A DNA stretch of 64,000 nt from Turicibacter bilis. GTDB taxonomy: Bacteria; Bacillota_I; Bacilli_A; MOL361; Turicibacteraceae. Shown one piece after another: positions 2,262-59,514 of this stretch (its first letter is position 1; every line of letters begins with the position of its first letter). Under the pieces are notes generated by a model. It was not told the origin of the DNA, made no database searches, and worked only from the letters and a program-made list of their open reading frames with translations. Made by a program: the position numbers and the translations under genes. The stretch covers positions 1,217,001 to 1,281,000 of the forward strand of contig NZ_CP071249.1 of NCBI RefSeq assembly GCF_024499055.1, read 5' to 3'.

Positions 2262-2385
2262 ATGTTAAATATATACGTCCTGATAAGTTTTTCATATCGT
2301 AGAAAATAACCCCTACTAGCGTAGGGAACCTCCTAGCAGTGGAAGATACATTTTCTTCGAAAATACCAGGTTTCCCCGTCTCAAA
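2262..2385 (-). repeat. Palindromic repeat array with tail (array 1)
   Basis: Read on the minus strand this has a unit with a perfect central stem (TATTTTCGAAGAAAATGTA), the conserved TTCCACTGCTAGG side, a second short unit (TTCCCTACGCTAGTAGGGG), and then the tail motif ATGAAAAACTTATCAGGAC. It belongs to the same family as the arrays at 4.4, 5.8, 12.3, 44, 48.7 and 52.6 kb. The rest of 2386-2530 holds nothing I can identify. Confidence 0.8.
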
Positions 2386-3065: not shown

Positions 3066-4020
3066 GCTTCACATAGGCATTAATAAACTGATAAATTCCG
3101 TCAAAATATTCTTTCTCCATGAGACTATCAGCCTCACAGTGACCGAGTCCTTCAATATACCATAATTTTTTATTTTCATGTGGAATTGCATCATAAATAT
3201 ACTGACTACTTTCAGGAGGCGTCACTTTATCATCTGTTCCATGAATTAAAAGAACAGGAACACTAATATTTTTTACCGCATCAACAGGCTGAATATCATC
3301 ATAAGTTAAATGTTCTTTTACCTTCAAGACAACATTCCCCGCCCATTTAGCAAAACTGACTGGTAAAAATGGAATATCTTCGGCAATAATTCCTAATTCA
3401 ACAGCACTCTCCATCGTATGATATGGCGCATCTAGCACATAAAAATCAACATTTCGTGCTTCTTCATTTAACTCGGTATGCATGGTTGATGTTGCAGCTC
3501 CCATTGAAAATCCGTGTACACCGATAATTCCATCTCGATAAAGTGAACGAGTATACTGTGCAACAGCTTCTAAGTCAAAACGTTCATATAATCCAAACGT
3601 ATAATTATCCCCACCTGTTAATCCCGTATTACGTTGATGATAAACGACGACATTATAACCATTTTCTAAGTAATTAAAAGCAACATTTAAGACTTCATGA
3701 TAATTACTTCCGATTCCGTGTACAACGATCATCGCATCTGATGTTTCCTCGTTAGCTTTAATACTCAGTGTCTCAACTTCGTAATCATTAACTTCACTTT
3801 TAACAAATACCGTCTCATGTTCATAATTTGCAAGAGTATCTAACACTTTATCCTCTCGCGTCGAATAAAACTCTTTCATATCTTCTGCTTTCACAGATGG
3901 TTTCTTTCCAACGGTCCCATCATAGACCATTCCACCAATAATCCAAGTTGCAGCACCTAAAGCAGCTACTGTTGCCGTTGCGGCAATCCCAGACCCAATC
4001 ACAACCTTCTTCTTTTTCAT
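3055..4020 (-). CDS. Membrane-anchored or secreted alpha/beta hydrolase
   Basis: A 321-residue protein with an N-terminal uncleaved signal or signal peptide (residues about 5-33) followed by an alpha/beta-hydrolase fold. Visible elements are the oxyanion HGIGSN stretch near residue 102, the nucleophile elbow GFSMG near 170, the acid HGTDDK near 260 and the catalytic His in GLGHCEAD near 293. The family (serine aminopeptidase S33/BAAT-like, similar to YqkD-type proteins) hydrolyses esters or peptides; the substrate is unknown. The active site should face the outside. It is monocistronic, with a terminator at its stop codon. Confidence 0.85.
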   Translation of the reverse strand: MKKKKVVIGSGIAATATVAALGAATWIIGGMVYDGTVGKKPSVKAEDMKEFYSTREDKVLDTLANYEHETVFVKSEVNDYEVETLSIKANEETSDAMIVVHGIGSNYHEVLNVAFNYLENGYNVVVYHQRNTGLTGGDNYTFGLYERFDLEAVAQYTRSLYRDGIIGVHGFSMGAATSTMHTELNEEARNVDFYVLDAPYHTMESAVELGIIAEDIPFLPVSFAKWAGNVVLKVKEHLTYDDIQPVDAVKNISVPVLLIHGTDDKVTPPESSQYIYDAIPHENKKLWYIEGLGHCEADSLMEKEYFDGIYQFINAYVKPGK

Positions 4021-4418: not shown

Positions 4419-4620
4419 TAGGTTCCCTGGCATTTCCCACGGAAATGTCTCCTCAATTGCTAGGGTATGGGGCCCCCGGCAGTGAGCAAAGCGAACAATC
4501 CTCCATTGCTGGGGTATGGGGCCCCCGGCAGTGAGCAAAGCGAACAATCCTCCATTGCTGGGGTATGAGACGAGCCCCCCCACTTCTAAACAATGTGAAG
4601 CAAATCTTCCACTGGTGGGG
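4419..4620 (+). repeat. Palindromic repeat array 2 (four head-to-tail units)
   Basis: Four units follow one another. The second and third are exact 49-bp copies that differ only in their last bases (GCCCCCGGCAGTGAGCAAAG to GGGTATGGG). The first has the stem CATTTCCCACGGAAATG and the fourth CTTC..GAAG. All keep the TCCTCC or TCTTCC bulge followed by an arm ending in GGGG or AGGG. GC content is higher than that of the surroundings. An apparent 62-codon minus-strand frame here is only a by-product of the repeat. Confidence 0.8.
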
Positions 4621-5828: not shown

Positions 5829-5972
5829 TGGGGGTCACCTACCATTTTCGAAGAAAATGTATCTACCGCTGGTAGGGCTTGGGTTCCCTACGCTACGTGG
5901 CTTAATTGAAGATTAAGCTCATAGCTTAGGCCTATTTTTTACGATGTAAAAAAACTTATCTAGATTTATATA
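5829..5972 (+). repeat. Palindromic repeat array 3 with tail, in front of the AraC gene
   Basis: Unit 1 (GGGGTCACCTACCATTTTCG onward) has a perfect CATTTTCGAAGAAAATG stem and ends GGTAGGGCTTGGG. A second unit begins GTTCCCTACGCTACG. The array ends in the tail at about 5940-5965 (AAACTTATCTAGATTTATAT), only about 30 bases before the AraC start codon. The tail therefore lies where the promoter should be, and its TATATT could serve as a -10 box. Confidence 0.8.
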
Positions 5973-12276: not shown

Positions 12277-12343
12277 CTATATATAAAGTAAAAAATAATC
12301 TAGATATTTCAATTCATACTTAGTTCTTAAAATACTTTGATAG

Positions 12344-12752
12344 TGGGTCACCTATGCTACGGAGTGAGTTTACGAACTCGTAGCTTTCCTCCGCTGATAG
12401 GGTTTGGGTCACCTACCATTTCCAACGGAAATGTATCCTCCACTAGTAGGGAATGGGTCACCTATGCTACGTAACGAAGTTCGTAGCTTTCCTCCGCTGA
12501 TAGGGTTTGGGTCACCTACTCTAACTGAAAGTTAGGTATCCGCCGCTAGTAGGGAATGGGTCACCTATGCTACGTAACGAAGTTCGTAGCTTTCCTCCGC
12601 TGATAGGGTTTGGGTCACCTACTCTAACTGAAAGTTAGGTATCCACCGCTAGTAGGGAATGGGTCGCCTAGAAGATTGTCAAAGACAATCTAATCTTCAA
12701 CTACTAGGGCTTTAATTTTCCCTATAGAAAATTTGTCGCAACTTATATATTT
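12344..12752 (+). repeat. Palindromic repeat array 4: seven units plus tail
   Basis: Units start at TGGG positions 12344, 12405, 12454, 12508, 12557, 12611 and 12660, with lengths 61, 49, 54, 49, 54, 49 and about 53. Long units (stem GCTACG/CGTAGC, arm CTGATAGGGTT) alternate with 49-bp units (stem CATTTCC/GGAAATG or CTAAC/GTTAG, arm CTAGTAGGGAA). The last unit has yet another stem (AGATTGTC/GACAATCT). Every unit keeps GGGTC(A/G)CCTA at the left, a paired centre, and TCCTCC-type bulge at the right. The tail follows at about 12715-12750. Confidence 0.9.
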
Positions 12753-17267: not shown

Positions 17268-17530
17268 TTTGATGAGTTAGAGGTGCGTGTCCAATGAGTA
17301 GGAATTTCGAGAGTGACGTCGATGACAAATTCTAAAAGGTGTCCACGCCGAAGTCTTGTTTGTGTCAACCAAACTTGTGCTGGTGTTATGTTGAATAAAT
17401 TTAACACTGTCACTACAATTGTAGTGGAGGACTAATGATCGGAGAGTTAAATAATACTTGTCATCTATCGTCTAACAACCTTAGACTTTTTAGAGCCATG
17501 TATGAGTTTAACTCTGCATGGCTCTTTTTT
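17268..17530 (+). promoter_or_regulatory. Lysine riboswitch (L-box) with terminator
   Basis: Conserved L-box blocks are visible in order: TAGAGGTGCG (17278), GAGTAGG, GTGTCCACGCCGAAG, TGCTGGTGTTATGTTGAATA, CTGTCACT and GTGGAGGACTA (about 17434). The expression platform follows: AGAGTTAAA near 17443 can pair with TTTAACTCT near 17507 (antiterminator), while AGAGCCATG 17492-17500 pairs with CATGGCTCT 17517-17525 and is followed by six T (terminator). High lysine should favour termination and shut off the transporter downstream. Confidence 0.93.
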
Positions 17531-29617: not shown

Positions 29618-30084
29618 TGCTTGTGTTATCGCGAATAATTTAGTGACTTGTCACTAAATGTTCAGTCCTTCCCTCCTGTTGATAGGTACTATGACTTCTG
29701 CTGACTTCCTCTATACATTTTCGATTCCTCAAGATACCCCTACCCTGCATATGCCCTCGTCATATCATGCTTCAGATAGGGTCTATAGTAAGACCTCTCG
29801 GGGTAAGCTCAACCACTTTCCTCTCATCTATCCGTCATATCTACACCCTACTCTTTCGAACCGATTTTGAGCTTTGTTTTGTCCTGTAAACTCACTCAGA
29901 ATCATCTGCCTAATATGCTCCGTATTCCTCGGACCAAGAGTTTGCCTCGACCTTCCTTCAGAGTGCGAAGCCTACTGTAAGTATTCTACCTCTCGATAGA
30001 TACCCTTGGTTTCGGCTAATAGTTCGCTCGGTTTACGCCTACAGTGGACTTTCACCACCTAGTTGTTGTGCATGCCTAGCACAC
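28706..30084 (-). mobile_element. Group II intron, 3'-truncated, inserted in a palindromic repeat
   Basis: On the minus strand the 5' end at 30084 begins GTGTGCTAGGCATGCAC, matching the GUGYG start of group II introns. About 460 bases of structured domain I-IV RNA follow, then the intron-encoded protein. The 3' half of the protein gene and the catalytic domains V-VI are missing; sequence stops at the ClC gene stop codon. The intron is therefore inactive for splicing by itself. Its 5' junction lies inside a unit of the palindromic repeat (30085-30119). Confidence 0.8.
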
Positions 30085-30119
30085 AGGAGATATTTACTTT
30101 ATAAATGGGAGGTGACCCG
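30085..30119 (-). repeat. Half of a palindromic repeat unit, interrupted by the intron
   Basis: Minus strand: GGGTCACCTCCCATTTATAA onward to ATCTCCT, then directly the intron. The right arm that should follow (CCACTGGTAGGG) is absent, presumably lost with the 3' end of the intron. Confidence 0.8.
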
Positions 30120-30374: not shown

Positions 30375-30660
30375 GTGACCTAAACTAAAACCCATAGACC
30401 ACGCCGTACTTATACAGATGAATTTAAAAATCAATTAGTCCAACTTTATCTAAATGGTAAACGTAAATGTGATATGAGTCGTGAATATGATATTTCATCA
30501 TCTTTACTCGATAAATGGACTTTCTACAGGTTCTTTTAAGGAGAAAGATAACTGTTCAGAAGAAGAAAATGAGTTGATTCAACTTCGTAAAAAGGTGAAA
30601 CAATTGGAAATGGGTTACCTAGCATGCGAAGCATAAATCCTCCACTGCTAGGGAATGGTA
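30375..30660 (+). pseudogene. IS3 family OrfA fragment interrupted by a palindromic repeat
   Basis: RRTYTDEFKNQLVQLYLNGK and SREYDISSSLLDKW are the helix-turn-helix of an IS3-type OrfA; after a small frameshift the leucine-zipper part follows (ENELIQLRKKVKQLEM). The frame then runs into the palindromic unit at 30611. The left IS end may lie near 30320-30350 (CAATTAATTAGACAG). OrfB is absent. The rest up to the gtrA gene holds only its promoter region. Confidence 0.75.
30611..30658 (+). repeat. Palindromic repeat unit in the IS3 remnant
   Basis: GGGTTACCTAGCATGCGAAG, CATAAATCCTCCACTGCTAG, GGAATGG; short stem ATGC/GCAT. Inserted after ATGG in the leucine-zipper codons. Confidence 0.8.
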
Positions 30661-33700: not shown

Positions 33701-35274
33701 ATGACAGAACTTGAACAAAACTTATTCTCACAAGTTAAAGACTTAACAGAACAAAACAAAGAGCTTCTAGAACAATTTCGCCAATTAACAAAAAAGATTC
33801 AGTACATGAATAAAAAGCTATTTGGTTCTTCAAGTAAGAAAACTAAAGTAACTGAGGGACAAATTTCACTATTTGATTCAGAAAATTTTTTGAAGAGACA
33901 GAGACAACTGAGGAATAAACCGTCGAAGAAATAACCTACCGACGTAAAAAACAAAAAGGAAGAAAATCTGAATTAATCAAAGACTTACCCGTTAAAGAAA
34001 TTCATTTTCAATTACACGGTGATAATTGCCGATGTGATCACTATGGGAATGAAATGAAACAGATAGGAAAAAGATGAGTCGTGAAGAAGTTTGCTTTATT
34101 CCAGCTCGATTATATAAAAAGCGATACATTAGCTATACATATGCTTGTAGTTGTCATGATGAATCCATTGAAGACAAACCGATTCGTTATGCCGAGACAC
34201 CAAAAGCTCCGATTCAAAGAAGCTTTGCCGGGGCCAGTGTGTTAGCTGAAGTTTTTCATCAAAAATATGTTTTAAGTATCTCTTGTTATCGACAAGTATC
34301 AGAATGGAAGCGATATGGATTGAGTTTGAGCGATAAAACTCTCTTGAATTGAATTATAATTGCTTCACATAATTGGTTATCACCGATTTACGAGCGACTT
34401 AAAGATGAGTTGATTCAAAATAAAGTCTTACATGCGGATGAAACGCCCTATCAGATCTTAAATCGAACGGATGGGAAACCAGCGACTTCTCAAGCAAGGG
34501 TTTGGTTATTCCGAACGATTAAAAATGCAGGTTATCCGATTGCTTACTATCATGTGGATCTCACACGTGAACGCGCAGTCGCAACAACGATCTTAGAAGG
34601 GTTCCAAGGATACCTTCATTGTGATGGTTATTCTGGCTATAAAAATCTTCCGAGTATTGATTTAGTGGGTCACCTGCCATTTACGAAGTAAATGTCTCCT
34701 CCACTGGTAGGGAATAGGATGTTGGGCTCACGTCAGAAGAAAGTTTTACGAGATTCCAGGAAAAAACGGTAAAGCAGAAAAATCAGTCAAGTACTGCGAT
34801 TAAATCTTTCATTTTGAGAAGACCATTAAGATGCTTTCTCCTGAAGAACGACAAAAGCAACGACAACTGATCATTAAACCAGTGATCGAGAAATTTTTTG
34901 AGTGGCTAGAATCCCTCTATGCGATGAAAGGGAAACTTCAAACAGCAGTGACGTATGCCTTAAATCAAAAGGTAGAGCTTTTACGTTTTTTAGAAGATGG
35001 AAATCTTGAAGCCTCGAATAATCTAGCTGAACAAGCGATTCGTCCATTAGCTATTGGTCGCAAAAACTATCTCTTTTCAACCAGTATGAAAGGAGCGGCA
35101 GCGAATGCGATGGCTTATCCGATCATCGAAACTGCTAAAGACAATGGATTGAATCCATCAAAATATCTTAACTATTTATTTGAAAAACTACCCAATATGG
35201 ACTTCATTAGAAATCCAGACATACTGGTAGACTTTTTGCCATGGGCAAAAAACGTACAAGTGATTTGTCAGTAA
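33701..35274 (+). pseudogene. tnpC: IS66 TnpC transposase, copy B, broken
   Basis: The chain can be followed from TELEQNLFSQVKDLTEQNKE (coiled coil) through the zinc-finger-like region, ADETPYQILNRTDGKP (DDE Asp) and SNNLAEQAIRPLAIGRKNYL to the C-terminal DFLPWAKNVQVIC. It is broken by stops near 33932, 34077 and 34350, and by a 49-bp palindromic repeat at 34670-34718 between codons for LVG and CWAHV. Confidence 0.9.
34670..34718 (+). repeat. 49-bp palindromic repeat inserted in tnpC copy B
   Basis: TCACCTGCCATTTACGAAGT at the left, TCCTCCACTGGTAGGGAATA near the right; stem CATTTACGAAGTAAATG. Removing exactly 49 bp restores GTGGGATGTTGGGC and the reading frame LVGCW, as in the uninterrupted copy A. 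Confidence 0.92.
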
Positions 35275-44060: not shown

Positions 44061-44263
44061 GAGCCCCTTTAGTGGGAGATACATTTACTTCGTAAATGAT
44101 AGGGCCCCACGAACAAACTACCCACTGCTTTTTAAACATCTATTCGTTAAGAATTTAGATAGCCTTATCCTTTAGGGCCGCCTTATACTTAATCCAGCTT
44201 CAAGCAGCAGTTTCTAATTCCCCTACCTATTGAGGAAAGATGCTAACGCATCGCAGGGAACCC
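44061..44263 (-). repeat. Two palindromic repeat units between ahpF- and ahpC-type genes
   Basis: Minus strand: GTGGGGCCCTATCATTTACG..AAATGTATCTCCCACT (44061-44109, stem CATTTACGAAGTAAATG) and GGTTCCCTGCGATGCGTTAG..CCTCAATAGGTAGGGG (44219-44263, stem GATGC/GCATC). Confidence 0.7.
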
Positions 44264-52581: not shown

Positions 52582-52770
52582 CAGGGGTCACCTACCATGC
52601 GCAGCATGTCTCCTCCTTTGGTAGGGAACGGGTCACCTGCCATGCACAGCATGTCTCCTCCTTTGGTAGGGAACAGGTCAGCTACCATTTTCTAGGGAAA
52701 TTTATCTACCGTTAGTAGGGCTTAAAAGTTTTCCGATATGAAAAACTTATCTGGACTTATATATATAATA
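52582..52770 (+). repeat. Palindromic repeat array 6: three units and tail
   Basis: Two near-identical units (GGGTCACCTACCATGCGCAG.. and GGGTCACCTGCCATGCACAG.., both ending CCTTTGGTAGGGAACxGG) and a third (CAGCTACCATTTTCTAGGGA..TAGTAGGGCTT). The tail GATATGAAAAACTTATCTGG is at 52735. Stems are CATGCGCAGCATG, CATGCACAGCATG and ATTTTCTAGGGAAAT. Confidence 0.88.
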
Positions 52771-53522: not shown

Positions 53523-53917
53523 TTTCTCGAATGTTCAAAACATATTCATTCCCTACCAGTGGAGGAGATATTTACTTCGTAAATGGTAGGTGACCCATCG
53601 TTTGTGGTCACACAGATATGCGCTGTGGCATTGATGGACTAGCAGGTATCATCACAGACAAGTATAATCTTGATTTATTTAACGATGCCCTTTTCCTATT
53701 TTGTGGACGAAAAAAAGACCGATTCAAAGCCCTTTATTGGGATAAAGACGGTTTTATCTTATTATATAAACGGATTGAGAAGGGTAACCTTCAATGGCCA
53801 CGAAACCAAGAAGAAGTCAAAAAATTAACGAGTCAGGAGCTTCGTTGGCTACTTGAAGGCTTATCTATCCAACAACCTAAAGCCATTAAACCAGCTCAAA
53901 CAGGATGTCTGATTTAA
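53512..53917 (+). pseudogene. tnpB: IS66 TnpB, copy D, interrupted by a 49-bp repeat
   Basis: Starts MLVNFSNVQNIFI and resumes after the insertion with CGHTDMRCGIDGLAGIITDK. Insertion 53550-53598 breaks the frame after eleven or twelve codons. Without it the protein would be 118 residues, like copy B. Confidence 0.9.
53550..53598 (-). repeat. 49-bp palindromic repeat inserted in tnpB copy D
   Basis: Minus strand GGTCACCTACCATTTACGAA onward to CCACTGGTAGGGAATG, stem CATTTACGAAGTAAAT. The plus-strand flanks CATATTCAT and CGTTTGTGG join to the uninterrupted form seen in copy B (CATCTTCATCGTCTGTGG) after removal of exactly 49 bp. Confidence 0.92.
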
Positions 53918-53980: not shown

Positions 53981-55607
53981 ATGAATCATTTAGAAAAAGA
54001 GGTGGCACCGTTGAGTACGTTTGAATCGAAACTAATCAAAGAAAATCAGAACCTATTAAAAAAATTGGATCAACAAACTCAACGAATCACTGAACAAGAT
54101 CAACAAATTAAACAATTAACTGAACAGGTTGAATTTTTAACAAAAAAGCTTTATGGATCCTCAAGCGAGAAAACTAAAATTGATCCAAATCAACTCTCAC
54201 TTTTTGAGGATCCTCATTTAGAAAACCACGAAACAAAGACTGAACCCACAGAAGAAATCACGTATCGTCGACGTAAGGCATCCGGTCGTAAAGCCGAGTT
54301 AACCAAAGATTTACCCGTTGAAGAAATTCACTGTGAGTTACATGGTGAAGATTGCCAATGTGAGTCTTGTGGTGAAAAGATGAAACCGATAGGAAAGAAA
54401 ATTATTCGTGAAGAGGTTTGTTTTATCCCAGCCAAGTTATATAAAAAAGTGTACTATTCACACGCTTATAAGTGTGATTGTGGTGATGATTTCTATGAAC
54501 CACAGCCCATTCAATGTGCCGAAGTCCCTAAAGGACCGATCCAAAGGAGCTTAGCTGGGCCTAGTGTTCTAGCCTGGATGATTCATCAAAAGTATGAATT
54601 AAGCCTCCCCCTTTATCGTCAAGAGAAAGAATGGAAGACGTATGGTTTAGAATTAAGTCGACGCACCATGGCGAACCGGATGATCAAAGTCGCCAATGAT
54701 TGGTTACGCCCAATTTATGATTCTTTCGCTAAGCTCATCGTAAAGGAAGAAGTTCTTCATGCCGATGAAACGTACTATCAAGTACTAAATCGAATGGATG
54801 GACGTGACGCAACCTCTCAAGCACGAATCTGGTTAATTCAAACAGGTAAAGAATGCGAAACACCTATCGTTTATTATCACGCAGATTTAACTCGTGCAAG
54901 AGTCGTCGCGGAGCAATTACTCGATGGACTTAAAGGCTACCTGCATTGTGATGGGTATTCCGGATATAAGAACTTACCGAATATTGAATGAGTGGGTCAC
55001 CTGCCATTTACGAAGTAAATGTCTCCTCCACTGGTAGGGAATGGGGTGTTGGGCTCATGCACGCCGCAAATTTAAGGATGTGCCAGGAAAGAATGGAAAA
55101 GCGAAACAAGCCATTGACTACTGTAACCAAATTTTTAAGATTGAACGAGAACTTCAGGAATTATCGCCTGAGGAGCGTTATGAGCAACGTCAGTTACAGG
55201 TCAAGCCAGTGATTGAGGCTTTTTATGACTTTCTAGGGAGCTTCATCCCCATGAAAGGTAAGTTACAAACTGCGGTTCACTATGTTTTAAATCAAAAGAA
55301 AGAACTGATGGCATTTTTGAAAGATGGACGATTAGAAGCATCGAATAATCGTGCCGAACGTGCCATCAAAACCGTGGTGATTGGACGGAAAAATTACTTA
55401 TTTTCAACAAGCTTATCAGGGGCTGAAGCCAATGCGATTATCTATAGTGTGATTGAAACAGCGAAAGAGCACGGCTTAAATGTTTATAAATATTTAACTT
55501 ATTTATTTGAACACCTACCAAATGTTGAGTTTTTAATGAAACCAAAGCTCTTGGAGGACTTTTTACCATGGGCAAAAAATGTTCAAGAACATTGTAAAGG
55601 AATCTAA
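53981..55607 (+). pseudogene. tnpC: IS66 TnpC transposase, copy D, interrupted by a stop and a 49-bp repeat
   Basis: The N-terminal 336 residues contain a coiled coil (about 20-60), the CxxC zinc finger HGEDCQCESCGEKM and the DDE region with HADETYYQVLNRMDGRD. An in-frame TGA at 54989 and the insertion 54997-55045 end the frame; it resumes as GCWAHARRKFKDVPGKNGKA and continues to ASNNRAERAIKTVVIGRKNY (catalytic Glu) and DFLPWAKNVQ. A better start may be the TTG at 54011 after GAGGTGG. Confidence 0.92.
54997..55045 (+). repeat. 49-bp palindromic repeat inserted in tnpC copy D
   Basis: 48 of 49 bases match the insertion at 34670-34718 (the only difference is in the last three bases, GGG versus AGG). 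Removal restores GTGGGGTGTTGGGC. Confidence 0.92.
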
Positions 55608-58845: not shown

Positions 58846-59514
58846 CTAATCTAATTCTATAATAGTTTGATGAATATCCTGAACCAATTGATAAATGAAA
58901 CCAATATACTGATTAATTTTTTCTTCTGTTAGTTCTGATCCCAAAGAGTTAATAGATTCTTGATCTTGATGGGCTAATCGATTCCGAAGCGAACGAAGTT
59001 TCTCGATAAGGTCAGATACTCCAAAATCAGATTCTGTCTTTAACACTAATTCATTAAATTTTTTTGACTTAAGCCCTACTGCTTCTAACTGATTTTTAAT
59101 TTTTCCATAACTTGTAAAACTCTTATACTGATTTATACTCGTAATCACTTCATCTAACCAATCTGATGACTCTGGATTTTGAATGGCTAACTCAACTGAT
59201 TGCATAGGAATTAGTAACTCTTTATACTGTTTTGTCTTAGTCTGATTCCCATTAAATTTTTGTATGATACAATACTTTACAATATCATGAATATATAAAT
59301 CTAATGCACTCATTAATAATATAATTTGACTCTGTCGAATCTCTAGTGTAGACTGACCATGTGCTGATAGAAATTGAATAATTTCATCTTTTTGTCTAAC
59401 AACTTCAATACTACTATTAAATTGTTTAAGAATGTGTTTTTCTTGCTCATTTCTAATGACAACTTTCTTTTTATCACGATTTGGCTGTGTTTGATGTAAA
59501 GATAAATCACGCAT
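58846..59514 (-). CDS. HEPN-domain protein (RiboL-PSP-type), partner of the AAA15 ATPase
   Basis: 222 residues, mainly helical. The RNxxxH motif typical of HEPN RNases is exact: RNRLAH at 177-182. The helix ALDLYIHDIVKYCIIQKF (about 70-87) resembles RiboL-PSP-HEPN proteins. HEPN effectors usually cut RNA, often tRNA, when a partner senses infection. It starts 11 bases after the ATPase gene. No signal peptide. I infer an RNase effector in a two-gene defence module; another role, such as regulation of the ATPase, cannot be excluded. Confidence 0.75.
   Translation of the reverse strand: MRDLSLHQTQPNRDKKKVVIRNEQEKHILKQFNSSIEVVRQKDEIIQFLSAHGQSTLEIRQSQIILLMSALDLYIHDIVKYCIIQKFNGNQTKTKQYKELLIPMQSVELAIQNPESSDWLDEVITSINQYKSFTSYGKIKNQLEAVGLKSKKFNELVLKTESDFGVSDLIEKLRSLRNRLAHQDQESINSLGSELTEEKINQYIGFIYQLVQDIHQTIIELD

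Follow-up and report, generated by a model that had tools for sequence, protein, structure and literature searches.

In Streptococcus pneumoniae and S. suis, BOX elements consist of two arms around a variable number of hairpin modules of ~45-50 nt. They exceed 100 copies in some genomes, exist also as arms free of modules and occasionally insert into genes and other repeats; terminal inverted repeats as well as target duplications have been reported for them (PMC3049150). REP/REPIN elements, described together with their RAYT transposases, form a second kind of small repeat (PMC3116915, PMC3733652, PMC8266576). In Turicibacter we found what appears to be an undescribed family that belongs to the same known, general kind as BOX or REP repeats; a literature search returned no paper on Turicibacter repeats. 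The best reading is that they are small mobile hairpins of the BOX/REP kind, for which the evidence of insertion is unusually clear.

In the window (the whole 64,000-nt stretch of Turicibacter bilis DNA that was analysed, from a complete 2.79-Mb genome), seven hairpin units follow one another head to tail and without gaps at 12345-12712 (+). They lie between a glycosyl hydrolase family 43 gene on one side and an ABC transporter operon (Peripla_BP_2, FecCD) on the other, and measure 61, 49, 54, 49, 54, 49 and 52 nt in order. The inner stem is GCTACG/CGTAGC in unit 1 (12345-12405) and unit 3 (12455-12508), CATTTCC/GGAAATG in unit 2 (12406-12454), CTAACT/AGTTAG in unit 4 (12509-12557) and AGATTGTC/GACAATCT in unit 7 (12661-12712). 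The stems cited in the original prediction were all found and are perfectly complementary. Units 3 and 4 are the two halves of copy A of a 103-nt block, and units 5 (12558-12611) and 6 (12612-12660) those of copy B; the copies agree at 102/103 positions, so the array did grow, as proposed, when a two-unit block was duplicated. The existence of the array and its seven units likewise stood, but its boundaries had to be moved: the first unit starts at 12345 rather than 12344 and the last ends at 12712, the stretch from there to 12752 being a right-hand arm. The strict alternation of long and short units that had been described holds for six units, but not for unit 7, whose 52 nt are of another type. 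Alternation is a feature of this array and not of the family; other arrays are uniform, for example eight consecutive 51-nt units at locus L033.

The units, about 42-66 nt in size, are laid out as GGGTCA, CCTAsC, inner stem and loop, ~12 unpaired nt, GsTAGG and GAAT (or CTT etc.). The outer stem CCTAsC/GsTAGG is common to them, the unpaired stretch forms a 3' bulge containing TCCTCC or similar, and the variable inner stem is mostly closed by a 3-nt loop; the last three bases of a unit vary as well (AAT, AAC, TAA, CTT, AAA). A covariance model built from the 49-nt class also detects the other length classes. Among 113 distinct units, standard pairs were found in 95.1% of the pair cells, compared to 79.5 ± 0.6% with shuffled and at most 54% with slid partners, the covariation score was 0.385 versus 0.133 (shuffled) and at most 0.12 (slid), and changes on both sides occurred at 10/12 pairs, figures obtained from an alignment fitted to the structure model and against a shuffle control that is inflated by related copies. 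The covariation test, which had been put forward as the check on paired stem changes, thus places these changes beyond chance. As the alignment had been fitted to the structure, an alignment-free stem test was run in addition: 88% of the 113 distinct units contained an inner stem of ≥5 bp, versus 10% of shuffled inner parts. The inner stems of these units come in 39 different sequence versions. Within the outer stem, the innermost position (C facing G or A) is not conserved and should not count as a pair. Folding of one strand is conserved, the shape being kept while the stem sequence changes. The original prediction had proposed that folding of single-stranded RNA or DNA is under selection or required for mobility; one-strand folding and the link to mobility were borne out, whereas RNA as the folded molecule and selection for a host function were not.

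The array is one of dozens of unit-carrying places in Turicibacter. Counts per genome are lower bounds, with at least 130 units in the source genome; beyond the window, the comparisons drew on the stretches surrounding the hits. Of 198 genomes from the class, only the 5 of Turicibacter had the family at E<=1e-6 (0/193 others, under stricter filters), and weaker unit matches were seen in one sister genus. All five Turicibacter genomes examined carry units, at differing places and in both gene orientations. Neither a plasmid collection searched with the array nor viral contigs searched with the unit pattern gave a match. Elsewhere in the window, units lie at 2328-2376 (-) and 44062-44108 (-), and three units, two of them of a diverged GGGGCCCCC type, at 4420-4566 (+). 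A weak unit (30072-30118, -, E 0.0009) adjoins group II intron pieces (D1-D4) at 29665-29979 (-). One unit (5832-5880, +) and a three-unit array (52585-52723, +) are each placed within an arm element. Solo units interrupt an IS3 orfA remnant (30612-30656, +), an IS66 tnpC gene at the V|GCWAH codon (34667-34715, +), a second IS66 tnpC gene (54994-55042, +) and, in antisense, an IS66 tnpB gene (53548-53596, -). The window also contains an ordinary lysine riboswitch (17270-17442, +).

Across the genomes, the hosts of solo units include IS66 tnpB and tnpC, IS3 orfA and orfB, ISL3 and IS30-like transposase genes, all assigned by Pfam save the IS30-like one, for which Pfam gave only an rve integrase core and which was assigned from its sequence; two further hosts, one radC-like and one resembling a GNAT acetyltransferase gene, were assigned from reading the sequence. 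Comparison with hairpin-free copies revealed exact empty sites without target duplication, namely CATT|TTAAATC (ISL3), CGAT|AAATATG (IS66 tnpB), TTAGT|GGGATG (IS66 tnpC), AAAT|GAATTT (IS3) and, for the antisense IS66 unit, CGAT|GACG with 100% flanks. Removal of the unit restores the reading frame in the radC, GNAT and IS genes, and units sit in both orientations relative to the host gene. The base 5' of the unit is T in 28/32 sites and the base 3' of it G in 22/32, which makes AT|G the typical target, similar to the tandem junction AAT|GGG of the units themselves. A 2-bp AT target duplication was rejected, as it fails at TAGT|, CATT| and CCGA| sites. The units show neither the terminal inverted repeats nor the target-site duplication by which MITEs are recognised.

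Rickettsia palindromic elements are small hairpins that have inserted into protein genes and in some cases keep the frame. The Turicibacter units are similar to these elements (reviewed in PMC2229807) in being hairpins in protein genes that are occasionally in frame: as read from the sequence, the 45-nt unit at a second ISL3 site leaves the frame open and adds 15 residues. On the other hand, they are mostly frame-breaking, the unit introducing a frame shift or stop at most other sites, and their hosts are chiefly transposase genes.

Several further observations were made in and around such genes. One IS66 tnpC copy (L160) reads TTAGGGAAT|GGGATG where intact copies have TTAGT|GGGATG; to judge from the sequence, an imprecise deletion of a unit has likely left this scar. 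A single IS3 copy (L028, 3486-4485) carries four different units and, in orfA at 3547-3566, a second, unrelated 20-nt hairpin (TACCC-GCAA-GGGGTA-CGCCG) inserted at ATTTTA|AAGCAAGC; this hairpin is present in 5 copies in 3 species, including homologous sites in genomes G002 and G004. In genome G001, the 3' part of an acetyltransferase-like gene holds an 800-nt array of larger units (L097, 967-1766). A pair of units 700 bp apart at L051 was considered as brackets of a transposase gene and rejected, only short ORFs lying between them.

We regard it as probable that the units represent a mobile DNA hairpin that is non-autonomous, occurs only in Turicibacter and its closest relatives and is likely moved as a folded single strand by a putative trans-acting enzyme. 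We infer movement via folded single-stranded DNA and the existence of a dedicated enzyme. One strand would fold into outer stem, 3' bulge and inner stem-loop; the enzyme would probably recognise the folded strand together with fixed sequence (GGGTCACC, the TCCTCC bulge, TAGGG) and insert the hairpin precisely at AT|G-like sites, leaving the target unduplicated. Since these targets resemble the junction AAT|GGG, an array could begin by insertion beside an existing unit and subsequently lengthen as blocks of one or two units are duplicated; that at 12345-12712 grew through copying of its 103-nt block. In favour of a mobile DNA hairpin, the written strand folds better with DNA than with RNA energies (mean z against shuffles -1.29 and -0.58, respectively), and 3-nt GNA loops occur in 75/113 units (GAA 57, GCA 8, GTA 6, GGA 4). 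GNA loops are unusually stable in DNA, e.g. in d(GCGAAGC). Against it, the complement folds about equally well (z -1.48 as DNA and -1.44 as RNA), the end bases of the units vary, and one ISL3 site has gained a net 44 nt rather than 45. At paired positions, G.T outnumbers A.C by 59:9, 48/59 of the G.T cases coming from a single pair. Unit orientation relative to replication, determined using the position of dnaA, is weakly biased (24:39, p 0.08), so that a model of movement through the single-stranded lagging strand lacks confirmation.

Many intergenic arrays occupy one point of an arm element of ~150 bp (..TATAGTCCAG|CTAAAAGTTTT..ACTTATCTGGACTTATATATA), and the final unit of such arm-borne arrays ends in GGGCT(T), with CT contributed by the arm. 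Two conserved arms around tandem hairpin modules, as in BOX, are thus found in many arrays. That at 12345-12712 has only a clear right arm: in comparison with the arms of other arrays, 12713-12752 (+) is a diverged right arm (..AACTTATATAT..), and 12280-12344 shows no clear match to a left arm, which is at best decayed. The ~150-bp arm element, which has TATATA close to either end, forms an interspersed repeat in its own right and also occurs unit-free; arm-only copies were seen at L031, L049, L053, L066, L071 (4233) and around position 58879 (-) of the window. The arm/module architecture and the high copy number are shared with the streptococcal BOX elements. It might accordingly be asked if, as for BOX, the arm element is the mobile entity, moved by a host IS transposase, with the units as an internal module that varies by slippage or unequal crossover and solo units as a side product. 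The common pair of arms and the arm-only copies, which also have their counterpart in pneumococcal BOX (PMC3049150), favour this; we nevertheless consider it unlikely, because at least 12 independent solo units in genes lack arms and show their own exact empty sites. Moreover, copies that consist of arms alone represent empty sites for units, which means that the units arrived second. The Turicibacter module further differs from BOX in occurring alone in genes, at exact empty sites, with neither terminal inverted repeats nor target-site duplication at unit insertions. Its host, Turicibacter and not a streptococcus, belongs to another bacterial class, and in the class-wide scan the units were confined to that genus; no common sequence was noticed.

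Certain codons were hit repeatedly. Both IS66 tnpC genes of the window (units at 34667 and 54994) are interrupted at the identical codon, by units that are 49/49 identical in flanks of ~65% identity (48-80% per 50 nt). ISL3 was struck at SAE|G in two species, by different units, and at YH|FK in four species. A 48-nt unit type was seen at one codon of IS3 only and is identical in four copies of two species; these copies are 81-87% identical around the unit and are scattered among unit-free copies in a tree with several weak branches. In G001, six unit-bearing ISL3 copies are interleaved with six unit-free ones. Going by the sequences, target preference, gene conversion or homing could account for the recurrent hits, and some of the shared sites may stem from gene conversion between IS copies and not from new insertions. 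That units pass mainly by intron-like homing, with an IS copy that carries one donating it to the matching codon of copies that lack it, distant ones included, would fit the identical IS66 units in dissimilar flanks, the one-codon IS3 type among unit-free copies and the interleaved ISL3 copies. We nonetheless hold this to be quite improbable: gene conversion among IS copies, or target preference combined with a recently active unit type, yields the same pattern, the IS3 tree has weak branches, and no homing nuclease was found.

No mover enzyme of the units was found. An IS200-like (Y1, HUH) transposase could act on the units in the way that TnpA-REP acts on REPs. The units are imperfect hairpins inserted precisely and without duplication, GTAG occurs in 59/113 of them, and Y1 genes are present in 4/6 unit-bearing genomes (counting clear full-length genes only). 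However, the GTAG is located in the paired 3' arm, and lies within the terminal unpaired bases, where the REP/RAYT tag would be expected, in just 2/113 units. The Y1 genes of genome G000 belong to ordinary IS200 elements, whose end hairpins, in the copies inspected, differ from the units, and the complete genome G002 carries units but has no match to PF01797 (Y1). Because of the latter, IS200/RAYT transposases are unlikely movers, and we give a REP/RAYT-type origin very little credence. The likeness to REP/REPIN elements nevertheless extends to short imperfect palindromes in high copy number, single and clustered, with families of stem variants; the units differ in being larger, in their 3' bulge and head-to-tail arrays, in residing often in genes, in lacking the unpaired GTAG tag and in needing no RAYT-type gene (absent in G002). 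With IS200/IS605-type elements they have in common the precise, duplication-free insertion, the need for a hairpin and a preferred short target 5' of the element, but their ends match those of no resident transposase element inspected (the IS200 copies of G000). Integron attC sites were rejected as well, the RYYYAAC ... GTTRRRY core being found in 0/113 units.

Could the units act as RNA? Transcribed units might fold and, through the C-rich UCCUCC bulge, capture a protein or Shine-Dalgarno sequences, so that arrays would serve as sponges or mRNA stabilisers. The compensatory changes and the conserved unpaired TCCTCC-like bulge are compatible with this, as is the complement, which as RNA folds better than its shuffles. 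As RNA the written strand barely beats its shuffles, though, both orientations occur, no RNA family described in Rfam matches the array, and solo copies in transposase genes suit mobility rather than regulation; the proposal is thus highly improbable.

The fate of the interrupted genes bears on a further idea. In the ISL3 copies of G001, we counted 35 silent and 20 amino-acid-changing substitutions and 0 stops among unit-bearing copies compared with one another, versus 17 and 5 silent and amino-acid-changing ones among intact copies, a comparison blurred by conversion and recent insertion. Transposase could be supplied by intact copies in the same genomes, and bypass or splicing of the interrupted genes, while possible as judged from sequence, is not required. 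Byps of yeast mitochondria are mobile bypassed hairpins of ~50 nt, inserted exactly in genes and often with matching codons on both sides. Exact insertion in genes, a hairpin of ~50 nt and often matched flanking codons link the units to byps (for bypassing, see the review PMC5009743), but they occur in both orientations, the codon match is trivial, being produced by AT|G targets together with the AAT end, and the interrupted genes may not be expressed. Ribosome bypass was rejected as the leading reading: some units are antisense, and matched codons are lacking at the 48-nt IS3 site as well as at the second ISL3 site. That the hairpins home to one and the same codon in transposase genes that are only distantly related and, in addition, are excised as DNA or RNA or bypassed by the ribosome during expression is the remotest of the ideas considered; if true, interrupted insertion sequences would remain active, and the units would be a ~45-50-nt bacterial counterpart of introns or byps.

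Read as small mobile hairpins, the Turicibacter units form a naturally preserved record of a mobile hairpin of very small size, with exact before and after sites, codons hit repeatedly across distant transposase genes and one fold kept by dozens of stem variants. This record makes them a good handle for finding a folded-DNA enzyme that is probably uncharacterised, and it also helps to ask how BOX-like arrays originate.
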